Assembly: GCA_945869195.1 (NCBI GenBank)
Contig: CAMBNV010000012.1
Span: forward strand, 1 to 43,461
Length of the DNA: 43,461 nucleotides
Direction: 5' to 3'
Origin: Gemmatimonas phototrophica
GTDB lineage: Bacteria > Gemmatimonadota > Gemmatimonadetes > Gemmatimonadales > Gemmatimonadaceae
Below the pieces are notes generated by a model, which worked only from the letters and a program-made list of their open reading frames with translations, made no database searches and was not told the origin of the DNA. Below, in pieces: positions 1-16,685 of the stretch (the first letter of the stretch is position 1; each line of letters opens with the position of its first letter). A program made the translations under genes and the position numbers.

Positions 1-87
1 CGCCTGCGCCATCGTCACGCCGCGATTCCGCACCAGCTTCACCGCTTCCACCTTGAACTCTCTTGTAAACTTCCGTCGCGTACCCAT
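1..87 (-). CDS. IS3-family transposase OrfA, N-terminal part (cut by window edge)
   Basis: Reading the minus strand from an ATG at 87 gives 29 codons that begin MGTRRKFTREFK and continue with VEAVKLVRNRG. This is the typical start of the helix-turn-helix OrfA of IS3-family elements, which binds the element's ends. The frame is open to base 1, so the rest lies outside the window. A GGAGG-like ribosome binding site sits just upstream of the ATG. I call the family from the characteristic N-terminal wording; the subgroup cannot be told from so little sequence. Confidence 0.8.
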   Translation of the reverse strand, partial: MGTRRKFTREFKVEAVKLVRNRGVTMAQA

Positions 88-11275: not shown

Positions 11276-11962
11276 TCACTCCTCCTTGAGCGCCTGCCTT
11301 GCCGCGCGCGCTGCCTCGCCGATTCCAAATCCACGGCGCACGAGCCACCCGACCAGGCGTCGGTACGCCACCGCAGGCTCGAGCGACCGCAACGATTTCG
11401 CGCGCCGCCCCGCGGCCGCGTCAAGCGTGAGCTGCTCCGACTCCCGAGCCTCCTCGTCGCGTGGGCCGATCACACGGTCGACCAGAGCAGACTCGACGCC
11501 GCGCCGCCTGAGCTCGGACACGGTGCGCCTAAAACCGAACCCGCGCGCGCGAGCAGGTCCCTCGGCGTATGCGCGAGCGTACGCCTCGTCGTCGAGCAGG
11601 CCGAGTGCGAGGAGCCGTTCACAGGCGCACGAGATCGCCTCCGGCGAGTGATCGCGCTGTTTCAGGTACCGCTCCAACTCGCGCTGCGAGCGCCCTTTCC
11701 GGGCGAGTGCATCCAGCGCCTTGTCGTAGCAGAAGGTCGCGGCGCTCGCCTCGAGTAGGCGCGCCACCACCTCGGCGCTCAGCGCCCGGCCTACGGCCAG
11801 CGCGAGCTCGCTGATCGTCTCGACTCCGACCGGCGTCACCGGTATACCACCGATCTCGACCGTGTAGCGCCCAGCCCGCCTCGGCGACTCGCGAACGGCG
11901 GTCACGGGGCCAGCCTCAGGGCGCGGGGGGGGCGCGGAGTTCCGCGACGGCATCGCCCTCAT
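11276..11962 (-). CDS. recX: Regulatory protein RecX
   Basis: The RecX-type helical repeats are recognisable: YDKALDALARKGRSQRELE, then LLDDEAYARAYAE, and a C-terminal AYRRLVGWLVRRGF. RecX binds RecA filaments and limits recombinase activity. The frame is open to 12115, but the stretch upstream of residue 52 looks non-coding. I start at the ATG at 11962, which overlaps the stop of the preceding remnant (ATGA), giving 228 residues. The N-terminal 20 residues are Pro-rich. Its position just downstream of recA is the common arrangement. Confidence 0.85.
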   Translation of the reverse strand: MRAMPSRNSAPPPRPEAGPVTAVRESPRRAGRYTVEIGGIPVTPVGVETISELALAVGRALSAEVVARLLEASAATFCYDKALDALARKGRSQRELERYLKQRDHSPEAISCACERLLALGLLDDEAYARAYAEGPARARGFGFRRTVSELRRRGVESALVDRVIGPRDEEARESEQLTLDAAAGRRAKSLRSLEPAVAYRRLVGWLVRRGFGIGEAARAARQALKEE

Positions 11963-12177
11963 GGGCCACTCACACTGAACATCGCCTCGAGCGCGAGTCG
12001 CGTACGGCGCTTGACCATCGGTTCGTCGTAGTAAGGCTCGCCGATCGCGAGCGCCGAGGCCAGGAGATACTGCGGCTGTGCGACGAAGACTCGGAGATGC
12101 GGCAGGTCGAGCCACGGATCGTACCGACCGCGCTCGGCGAGGAAGCGAAGGGCGACTTTCTGCGGCGGCGAGGAAGA
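11959..12177 (-). pseudogene. Truncated gene remnant between recA and recX
   Basis: About 65 codons look like real protein: KVALRFLAERGRYDPWLDL, then LRVFVAQPQYLLASALA, ending EAMFSVSGP. The VFVAQPQYLLA stretch is reminiscent of DUF6036/AbiEii-like nucleotidyltransferases, which usually have a similar 'VFVA.PEYLLA' segment; this is a weak resemblance. No convincing start exists, because the upstream frame runs through the recA terminator-like hairpin. It is best read as a 5'-truncated remnant, though its stop overlaps the recX start, so it may still be translated. Confidence 0.4.
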
Positions 12178-13309: not shown

Positions 13310-13645
13310 CAACGCCTCGGATGGTCCTGCCTGTAACGTCGGCAGCGCCGACTTGTGAAGGGAATCTACCCCGTACCTGAGACGGGGCCACCCCGAACGA
13401 ACTGCGAAAGAACAGTGGAGTGCTGCAACCAGCTGTATACCGAACAGATGGCGAAAGTAGCGCCAGGAAGCAAGCCCCAGAACGCCACAGGCAAAAATGA
13501 TGGCGATAGGCCATTATGTGATTACGGCGATGCAGTTTTCAACATTTAGCTAACTACTTACCTGCCAATACTTAACGCCTGTGAAACGCTGTAGAACTCT
13601 GTGGGTATGATTTGGATTTACTGTAAGTTATCAACACCTCCGCCG
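13310..13645. other. 336-base intergenic region between yraN and recA
   Basis: No gene is visible. The half nearest recA (13310-13460) is GC-rich and carries the LexA-like repeat. The half nearest yraN (13500-13640) is clearly AT-richer than the surroundings and holds TTTTCAACA and TTATCAACA, each near the DnaA-box consensus, but only two such strings. It most likely contains the recA promoter. I could not fix a confident -35/-10 pair. Confidence 0.6.
13399..13413 (-). promoter_or_regulatory. LexA-like direct repeat upstream of recA
   Basis: On the recA coding strand the sequence is GTTC, seven bases, GTTC (13413-13399), with a further GTTC directly after it (13398-13395). GTTC-N7-GTTC is the LexA operator known from Alphaproteobacteria. 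It lies 90 bases upstream of the recA ATG, where an SOS operator is expected. Whether this organism's LexA uses this motif is not known from the window. Confidence 0.5.
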
Positions 13646-14100: not shown

Positions 14101-14139
14101 CTACGCCGCGAAGCTACGCCGCGAAGCTACGCCGCGAAG
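14101..14139. repeat. Three tandem 13-base repeats at the ftsK 3' end
   Basis: CTACGCCGCGAAG occurs three times in a row (14101-14113, 14114-14126, 14127-14139). The last copy contains the ftsK stop codon and its final Phe-Ala-Ala codons. The extra copies therefore lie just behind the stop and look like slippage duplication of the gene end. They do not change the protein. Confidence 0.9.
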
Positions 14140-16685
14140 CGAGCCCCGGCGATCCGGTCGAGGTCCTCGAGACCGACCAGCACGTCGCGCGGCTTGGAGC
14201 CGTCGGGGGGGCCCAGGATACCGGCCAGATGCAGTTGGTCGATGATCCGCGCCGCGCGCCCGTACCCGACTTTGAGGCGCCGCTGCAGCAACGACGTCGA
14301 CCCGCCCTGATGCTGGACGCAGATCTCTGCCGCCTCGCGGAACAGCTTGTCGCGGTCGCTCGCGTCGTCGGACGACTCCTCGGTGCCGCCGGCCTCGAGC
14401 GCCTCGCGGGCGCGCACCGCCTCGAGGATGTCCCCCTCGGAATGCGGCTCGATCTGGATCAGCCCCTGCGACTGCATCGCGACCTTCCGCGCCTCTTTCC
14501 GTTCCGTGTACCAGTGCATGAGCCGCTCGGTGTCGTCGTTCGACAGAAACGCCCCCTGCAGACGACTCGGCTCGCTCTTCCCCGGCGGGATGAACAGCAT
14601 ATCCCCGTTGCCCAGCAGCGACTCGGCCCCCATGCCGTCGATGATCGTGCGACTGTCGATCTGTGACGCCACACGGAACGCGATCCGACTGGGGAAGTTC
14701 GCCTTGATCAGGCCGGTGATCACGTTCACGCTCGGCCGCTGCGTGGCGAGGATCAGGTGGATGCCGATCGCCCGGGCCTTCTGCGCCAGCATCGCGAGCG
14801 GCGTCTCGACCTCGGCCGCGACCGTCATCATCAGGTCAGCGAGTTCGTCGATCACCACGACGATATACGGGAGCACGCCACCGGTGTAGTCACGATTCTC
14901 AAAGCCGACGTTCGGGTCCTTTGGCTTCCGCAATGTGCTGCCGGCGCGGACCTTCGTATTGAAGTCCTGGATATTCCGTGCGCCATTCTCCGCCAGCAGC
15001 GCGTAGCGCTCCTGCATCTCGAGGACCGCCCACTTGAGCACCGCCGCCGCGTCCCGGTTGTCGGTGACGACTTTGTGGCGCAGGTGGGGCAGCACATTGT
15101 ACACGCTCAACTCCACCATCTTGGGGTCGACCATCAGGAAGCGCAGCGTCTTGGGCGTGTGCCGGTAGATGAGCGAGGTCACGATCGTGTTCACGCAGAC
15201 CGACTTACCCGAGCCGGTTGCGCCGGCGATGAGGAGGTGCGGCATCTTCGCCAGATCCGCGATCACCGCCCGCCCCTCGAGATCCTTGCCGAGTGCGATC
15301 GGCAGGGCCATGGGTTTGTTCTGATAGTCCGCGCTCTCGAGCATCTCGCGAAACGCGACCATTTCGGGGTGTGGGTTCGGCACCTCGATACCCACCGCGC
15401 CCTTGCCCGGGATTGGGGCCACCACCCGGATGCTCGGCGCCCGCATGGCAAGCGCGAGATCGTTGGCGAGGTTGGCGAACTGACGGACCTTCACCCCAGG
15501 GGCGGGCTCAATCTCGAACTGCGTGACCGTCGGGCCGCTGGTGCGGCCCGTCAGGGTGCCCTCGACCTTGAAGGTGCGCAGCGACTCGATGAGCTTGGCA
15601 CCCATGGCGTCGAGCTGCGCCCTACCCGCCTCGAGATTTCGTGCCGGCGCCGGGGTAAGTAGCAGAGGGCTCGGCAGCTCATCCGACTCCGGCAGTGGCG
15701 GACTGGCCGAGGCCAGTCGCTGGGCATCTCCCGCCCTGGCCTCCGCTCCCGTGCCGGTACTCCGCTTGCCGCGCGTCCCCCTCGGCGCGGCAGCGATAGG
15801 CGTCTCGTCGACCGCCTCCACTGATGGCTCGATGACCGGGGCATGCGCCGTCTTCGGCGGCACGGTGTCGGCCGTGGCCTCGGCGGCGAGACCCATCAGC
15901 GCGAGATCGATCGCGGGCATCTCTTTCGCGTCGGGCTCAAGCGCCTCCGCCCGCGTGATCGCCGCGGCCACGGGATCGACGACGGTGACGGGGTCGACGA
16001 CGGTCACGGGAGGTCTGGTGCCGACCGCGACGATCGCACGCAGCGGATTCCAGCCGAGCGTCACCGCGGTGAGGACACTGACGGCCGTGACGATGATAAA
16101 CCAGGCGCCGCCGCGGCCGAGGGCCTCGGCGAGGTAGAAGCCGGCGAATGACCCCCAGAGGCCAGCGAGCGGATCACCAGTGCCCGCGGGGACGGCGCCG
16201 AGACGCGCGAGTCCCGCAGCAACCGGGACGATCACCACGAGCCCGAGGGGGAATAGGTCGAAGTGCGCACGCGAGGTCTGTTCGATCCGGCCCAAGAGCC
16301 GCAGGGCCCGTACGGCGGGGATGAGCGGCACGATCAGGGCCGCGATCCCGCCCACGAGACCAAGAATCGACCATCGGAGACAGCCGCCGACGGGCCCAAA
16401 GGCGCCCCCAGCCACGCGGCATGACTCGAGCGACTCCGGTGCATGACCAAAGAGCAACGCCCCGGCCACGAAGAGCGAACCCACGAGGAACACGATGCCG
16501 GTGATCTCGCGGCGCAGCGGCGATCCGCCTTCGACCGGGGGGCGTCTGTCGCTATCCAGTCGCGTCGGGCTCAGGCTGTCACTGCGCGACTCGTCCGGCG
16601 ACTTGCGTACGCGCGTGCGGCGCGCGGCCGGCGCGAGCGGGGATTCGAGTAAGAGGGGGTCTTCCTGGGGCAGCTTCCGCGGCAT
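14127..16685 (-). CDS. ftsK: DNA translocase FtsK/SpoIIIE
   Basis: The 852-residue protein has about four membrane segments between residues 60 and 215 and a low-complexity Pro/Ala/acidic linker (about 225-350). The motor domain has Walker A GATGSGKS near 485-492 and Walker B PYIVVVIDELADLMM. The C-terminal winged-helix gamma domain includes TSLLQRRLKVGYGRAARI. It pumps chromosome ends across the closing septum and promotes dimer resolution at dif. The linker contains VTVVDP twice, from an 18-base tandem repeat (15974-16009). The ATG at 16685 fits the hydrophilic N-terminus. Length is within the family range. Confidence 0.95.
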   Translation of the reverse strand: MPRKLPQEDPLLLESPLAPAARRTRVRKSPDESRSDSLSPTRLDSDRRPPVEGGSPLRREITGIVFLVGSLFVAGALLFGHAPESLESCRVAGGAFGPVGGCLRWSILGLVGGIAALIVPLIPAVRALRLLGRIEQTSRAHFDLFPLGLVVIVPVAAGLARLGAVPAGTGDPLAGLWGSFAGFYLAEALGRGGAWFIIVTAVSVLTAVTLGWNPLRAIVAVGTRPPVTVVDPVTVVDPVAAAITRAEALEPDAKEMPAIDLALMGLAAEATADTVPPKTAHAPVIEPSVEAVDETPIAAAPRGTRGKRSTGTGAEARAGDAQRLASASPPLPESDELPSPLLLTPAPARNLEAGRAQLDAMGAKLIESLRTFKVEGTLTGRTSGPTVTQFEIEPAPGVKVRQFANLANDLALAMRAPSIRVVAPIPGKGAVGIEVPNPHPEMVAFREMLESADYQNKPMALPIALGKDLEGRAVIADLAKMPHLLIAGATGSGKSVCVNTIVTSLIYRHTPKTLRFLMVDPKMVELSVYNVLPHLRHKVVTDNRDAAAVLKWAVLEMQERYALLAENGARNIQDFNTKVRAGSTLRKPKDPNVGFENRDYTGGVLPYIVVVIDELADLMMTVAAEVETPLAMLAQKARAIGIHLILATQRPSVNVITGLIKANFPSRIAFRVASQIDSRTIIDGMGAESLLGNGDMLFIPPGKSEPSRLQGAFLSNDDTERLMHWYTERKEARKVAMQSQGLIQIEPHSEGDILEAVRAREALEAGGTEESSDDASDRDKLFREAAEICVQHQGGSTSLLQRRLKVGYGRAARIIDQLHLAGILGPPDGSKPRDVLVGLEDLDRIAGARFAA

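Follow-up and report, generated by a model that had tools for sequence, protein, structure and literature searches.

The window, a stretch of 43,461 nucleotides from Gemmatimonas phototrophica (genome G000 of our set), harbors recA on the minus strand and a recX-like open reading frame downstream of it (Table 1). The minus strand upstream of recA reads GTTCTTTCGCAGTTCGTTC and is also quoted as GTTCTTTCGCAGTTCGTTCGG. The recA start codon, an ATG at 13309-13307, stands about 85-90 bases downstream of a GTTC-N7-GTTC. The first-pass annotation had drawn attention to a GTTC-N7-GTTC-GTTC some 90 bases before recA, and this element was indeed present, with the third GTTC extending the span to 13395-13413. 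It had been taken for an SOS direct-repeat operator of the alphaproteobacterial type. Two predicted LexA boxes, termed A and B, were placed in the same region, and box B overlaps the GTTC-N7-GTTC with an offset of four bases.

Table 1. Features of the recA region of the window
Feature	Position	Strand	Evidence
recA, 346 aa	12269..13309	-	TIGR02012, 559 bits (cut-off 325)
recX-like ORF, downstream of recA	11276..12115	-	Sub-threshold NCBIfam matches
Predicted LexA box B, TTTCGCAGTTCGTTCGG, TTTCGC-N5-GTTCGG (TTCG-N7-TTCGG), downstream box before recA	13393..13409	-	Register set by TTCG-N7-TTCGG in 30/30 best-matching recA promoters of the family
Predicted LexA box A, TTTCGCCATCTGTTCGG, upstream box before recA, absent from the first-pass annotation	13440..13456	-	Same box, TTCGCCATTTGTTCGG, in same-genus genome G023
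GTTC-N7-GTTC, apparent off-register reading of box B	13399..13413	-	Conserved in only 2/30 best-matching recA promoters

GTTC-N7-GTTC occurred twice in the window versus 1.24 occurrences expected from shuffled sequences, and at least two matches were obtained in 37 of 100 shuffles. The sole other match in the window (16477-16491) lies within an ftsK-like open reading frame (14127-16685) and looks like a product of chance. Genome-wide, 42 matches were counted, none of them at the lexA, imuA-imuB-dnaE2, uvrA, or dinB loci of this genome. Here and below, imuA, imuB, dnaE2, and the splB-like gene are names that we assumed from reading the sequences. Upstream of lexA, the pattern was found in 5 of 81 loci; among the best-matching 30 loci for each of the other genes, it preceded recA in two and the splB-like gene, uvrA, and dinB in none. 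As a LexA box, GTTC-N7-GTTC was rejected on the grounds of its chance-level frequency in the window, its rarity at lexA and recA, and its absence from the 30 splB-like promoters.

Side-by-side reading of the lexA promoters revealed a different element, TTCGG repeated at 11-bp intervals. Boxes were counted as exact TTCG-N7-TTCGG in the 300 bases upstream of a gene. The 81 lexA loci examined comprised those of 80 LexA relatives, the closest of which were 90-92% identical, and that of the genome under study. All 76 Gemmatimonadota loci carried the box; these were the loci of 75 relatives (L083, labeled "bacterium," counted in) and the genome's own. The five loci lacking it belong to Acidobacteria (L106, L107, and L108) and to Lambda- and Deltaproteobacteria (L110 and L112). 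Sets for recA, the splB-like gene, uvrA, and dinB consisted of the best 30 loci of larger lists from 59 genomes of the host's family. In these sets, the box preceded recA in 30, the splB-like gene in 29, uvrA in four, and dinB in one. Seven other families of the phylum supplied another 40 lexA promoters, of which 39 carried the box and the exception had TTCGC instead; some of these loci apparently stem from the same organisms as in the first sample (e.g. L415 and L105, whose contigs are equally long).

The spacing of the repeat was strict. TTCG start positions were 11 bp apart in 76/76 lexA, 30/30 recA, and 29/30 splB promoters (the latter two among the best-matching 30 each), the neighboring spacings TTCG-N6-TTCGG and TTCG-N8-TTCGG gave only 0-2 matches per promoter set, and shuffled upstream sequences gave approximately none. 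Inverted TTCG arrangements were not enriched in any of the lexA, recA, and splB sets. Both palindromic candidates were rejected as operators in the upstream promoter sets, GAAC-N4-GTTC being present in 0 of 81 lexA and 1 of 30 recA promoters and CTGT-N8-ACAG likewise being discarded. Three alphaproteobacterial lexA promoters served as a control; they contained GAAC-N7-GAAC, the reverse complement of the alphaproteobacterial box, and TTCG-N7-TTCGG in no case. In the 2.33-Mb genome (15 contigs), TTCG-N7-TTCGG matched 19 times versus five times for the reversed-pattern control. Four of the 19 matches fell at SOS promoters, two each at lexA and recA, and the remaining 15 were located away from known SOS genes, mostly inside open reading frames. 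The first-pass annotation had proposed looking at the other SOS promoters of the genome for GTTC-N7-GTTC or for another conserved box. GTTC-N7-GTTC was missing there, and another box, YTTCGG-N5-NTTCGG, was found.

The aligned promoters gave the consensus YTTCGG-N4-T-V-TTCGG. The base at position -1 of the first half-site was mostly C or T, with G accounting for 5, 5, and 3% in lexA, recA, and splB promoters, respectively. Because G almost never occurs at this position, GTTC is not the half-site. Judged by this conservation, the GTTC-N7-GTTC before recA is an accident of register. Thus, of the operator initially claimed, an SOS direct repeat with an 11-bp period was retained, though in another phylum and with another half-site. 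Upstream of lexA, tandem operators were the usual arrangement, with 1.87 sites per promoter. A TTG-16..18-TA promoter bracketed it in 74 of 76 lexA promoters and in 22 of the 30 best-matching splB promoters, so that the box occupied the -35/-10 spacer. In 26 of the 30 best-matching recA promoters, the -10 element (mostly TANTTT) lay within the operator with a TTG 16-17 bp upstream, a layout that was seen at neither of the two recA boxes of the genome under study. Both of these boxes have TTCGC as first half-site and may therefore be weak.

In the genome under study, two boxes were found upstream of lexA (contig C5, 59436-60035), and two boxes, each one mismatch away from TTCGG-N6-TTCGG, preceded imuA in the imuA-imuB-dnaE2 operon, with which contig 4 begins. 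No box was detected at either of the two uvrA genes or at dinB, and splB itself was not found in this genome. The predicted SOS regulon would thus consist of lexA and recA with two boxes each and imuA-imuB-dnaE2 with its two single-mismatch boxes. In other bacteria, uvrA and dinB are SOS genes. Here they were rejected as regular members for most genomes (4/30 and 1/30 among the best-matching loci), and since they mostly lack a box, and do so entirely in the genome under study, the regulon is small. An IMS search recovered a single Y-family polymerase domain in most genomes (L162-L191) with a LexA box upstream in 1 of 30; this count covers the 300 bases upstream of the domain match, such that a dinB start situated further upstream could hide a box.

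Two complete genomes, G022 and G048, were scanned with a slightly stricter pattern and yielded 9 and 11 matches, respectively. In both, lexA (two boxes) and recA were recovered; the G022 matches also included a splB-like radical-SAM gene and those of G048 imuA (two boxes) and dnaE2. Conserved matches near mutM and uvrC in these genomes and in L222 and L223 were not counted as operators, being in or near reading frames. Two tandem boxes also preceded imuA in G023 and G049. The promoter of dnaE2 had a box of its own in 3 of 30 loci, and in the loci that were read the box lay mostly within the imu operon. In some relatives, such as G022, the splB-like gene is situated immediately upstream of imuA-imuB-dnaE2. 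A perfect TTCGG-N6-TTCGG was also noted at L121:1501-1516 (contig 4:146974-146989 of the genome under study), flanked by a TetR-like gene, divergently oriented, and an open reading frame resembling msrB, both names being our assumption; it is possibly an additional LexA target or a chance match.

The LexA protein encoded in the genome under study scored 202.9 bits against TIGR00498 (cut-off 110.95). The Ala-Gly cleavage site at Escherichia coli positions 84/85 and the catalytic residues Ser119 and Lys156 were all kept. The recognition helix was SLATVHEHL in the 76 Gemmatimonadota LexAs (75 relatives and the genome's own), compared with SKSGIHRLI in Alphaproteobacteria and SSSTVHGHL in Bacillus. 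Conservation of the box, its spacing, its promoter position, the set of genes that it precedes, and the intact cleavage site and catalytic pair of LexA were all computed here. Binding of the box by LexA, the geometry of the dimer, and induction by DNA damage are what we infer. We hold it to be very probable that recA of the window is preceded by two copies of a Gemmatimonadota LexA direct-repeat operator. The phylum appears to use this operator of its own before lexA, recA, and mutagenesis genes. It would consist of two half-sites, YTTCGG-N4-T-V-TTCGG, whose starts are 11 bp, one helical turn, apart, and a LexA dimer would most likely set both of its recognition helices, identically oriented, on one face of the DNA. 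At lexA and splB promoters, the -35/-10 spacer is filled by the predicted operator; in the family's recA promoters, the -10 hexamer mostly lies within it. As a consequence of this placement, a bound repressor would exclude RNA polymerase, until RecA filaments formed on damaged DNA trigger self-cleavage of LexA.

The origin of the box is a separate matter. A LexA tree of 40 rows was calculated, which included 21 of the 76 Gemmatimonadota rows, three acidobacterial and three alphaproteobacterial rows, with several long branches outside these groups. Gemmatimonadota LexA grouped with the three acidobacterial LexAs (99/96 support), and the alphaproteobacterial sequences branched beside the Gemmatimonadota-Acidobacteria-Delta group, separated by a short internode. 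This branching, together with the shared period, the common TTC core, and the 11-bp direct repeat TTCGC-N6-TTTGC in 3/3 acidobacterial lexA loci, would fit an ancestral LexA of Gemmatimonadota, Acidobacteria, and Alphaproteobacteria that already bound 11-bp direct repeats, the half-sites alone having diverged. Such deep inheritance would be compatible with the operator proposed here, but a clade of these three groups alone was borderline (p-AU 0.041). The lambda- and deltaproteobacterial LexAs, which are nearer to those of Gemmatimonadota than the alphaproteobacterial ones, go without TTCG-N7-TTCGG, and the tree has only three alphaproteobacterial rows and long branches. We consider this origin rather unlikely. 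For L110 and L112, the LexA helix was SAGGVHKH, and the promoters contained GTTC half-sites near ACATATGTTC and ACAAATGTTC and no TTCGG, which we read as a putative further operator type.

A genuine alphaproteobacterial-type box, with a LexA held in common with Alphaproteobacteria or obtained from them, is highly improbable, even though an exact GTTC-N7-GTTC precedes recA and the direct-repeat architecture and the 11-bp period are identical. Lateral acquisition of LexA has an acidobacterial precedent, as Acidobacterium capsulatum reportedly received an alphaproteobacterial-type LexA and box in this way. Against it stand the rejection of a joint clade of Gemmatimonadota and alphaproteobacterial LexA (p-AU 0.0044, with three alphaproteobacterial rows), the dissimilar recognition helices, the low counts of GTTC-N7-GTTC at lexA, recA, and splB promoters, and the alphaproteobacterial controls, which have their own box and no TTCG-N7-TTCGG. 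The first-pass annotation had invoked convergence or shared ancestry of LexA specificity; acquisition or close shared ancestry found no support in the clade test and the helices.

A second LexA-like protein is encoded in most Gemmatimonadaceae genomes searched. In the genome under study, its gene is located on contig 7 (L002:1453-2097, minus strand) beside a gltX-like gene, and the loci in relatives are L353-L382. Its helix reads STK[TS]V, and among 25 aligned copies the catalytic Ser was present in eight and Lys in six. Because most copies go without the Ser/Lys pair, the paralogue looks like a LexA on its way to becoming a non-cleavable regulator. We deem it very doubtful that the box belongs to this or another SOS-like regulator rather than to LexA: the paralogue has a different helix and has lost the catalytic pair in most copies, G022, G048, and nearly all genomes of families f2 and f3, with LexA itself as the single match, keep the box, and the box is found in the promoter of lexA, as autoregulation predicts. 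That a promoter or codon constraint instead of an operator conserves the box is scarcely credible, for although it overlaps -35/-10 regions that are themselves conserved, its position relative to the promoter differs between lexA or splB and recA at an unchanged 11-bp spacing, almost none turned up in shuffled sequences or in controls with a period of 10 or 12 bp, and most uvrA and dinB promoters lack it.

Within the LexA direct-repeat operator, the last base of the half-site covaried with one residue of the protein. The residue corresponding to E. coli position 45 was Glu in 76 of 76 Gemmatimonadota lexA loci and, without exception, in the 39 additional loci with TTCGG. Of six genomes searched from a different class of Gemmatimonadota, five gave a match, and their LexA helix read ATVHKHL, with Lys at position 45; the lexA promoters of these five had tandem boxes of the type TTTCGC-N5-NTTCGC, the second box ending in T in two of them. 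Lys was also present at this position in the three acidobacterial relatives, whose lexA loci (L106-L108) showed TTGACTTTCGC...TTTGC...TA, an 11-bp direct repeat with a related but different half-site. From these counts, Glu at position 45 pairs with TTCGG and Lys with TTCGC. The chemistry would fit this pattern, with Glu contacting the cytosine and Lys the guanine opposite the last base of the half-site. The link is suggestive only, because very few evolutionary events are involved. Since TTCGT or TTCGC forms the first half-site of recA boxes in the Glu-bearing family, the rule could apply strictly to the second half-site only. Whether Gemmatimonadota evolved a phylum-wide direct-repeat operator independently of Alphaproteobacteria, with residue 45 alone setting the last base, is in our judgment evenly poised. 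If true, this would be a case in nature of LexA specificity being switched by one residue, and the base-reading rule suggested by Glu/Lys and G/C can be tested by a single point mutation.

Among regulators, LexA has changed its operator unusually often. In E. coli, the SOS box is the palindrome CTGT-N8-ACAG; the Ala-Gly bond, Ser, and Lys are kept in the LexA studied here and a box likewise precedes its own gene and recA, but here the operator is no palindrome, its half-sites differ, and the gene set is smaller, with uvrA and dinB of the genome under study lacking a box. A search of openly licensed papers on LexA in Gemmatimonadota retrieved no description of a LexA box for the phylum. As far as our searches tell, within the literature covered, this would be a usual SOS system whose operator had not been described before, and the TTCGG box provides a ready search pattern for Gemmatimonadota SOS regulons.

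The Gram-positive LexA box is given as GAAC-N4-GTTC in PMC3323433. It shares the TTC core, and the Bacillus helix is closer than the alphaproteobacterial one to the helix found here; unlike the Gemmatimonadota box, it is a palindrome. The imuA-imuB-dnaE2 mutagenesis cassette is described as LexA-regulated in PMC3919608. The same gene order follows a LexA-type box here, but the box is of the TTCGG type and some relatives have the splB-like gene just upstream. According to PMC8565304, LexA proteins bind 17 distinct motifs; as an instance of a direct repeat, both this paper and PMC3323433 name the alphaproteobacterial GTTC-N7-GTTC. This box resembles the operator proposed here in being a direct repeat with an 11-bp half-site period (one helical turn) and a TTC core and, as predicted here, in controlling lexA and recA. 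It differs in its half-sites, YTTCGG/TTCGG with avoidance of G at -1 of the first being characteristic of Gemmatimonadota, and in the lineage and recognition helix of its LexA. A second direct-repeat operator, phylum-wide and in a separate LexA lineage, would offer a comparison for the shift of the LexA dimer from palindromic to direct-repeat DNA.
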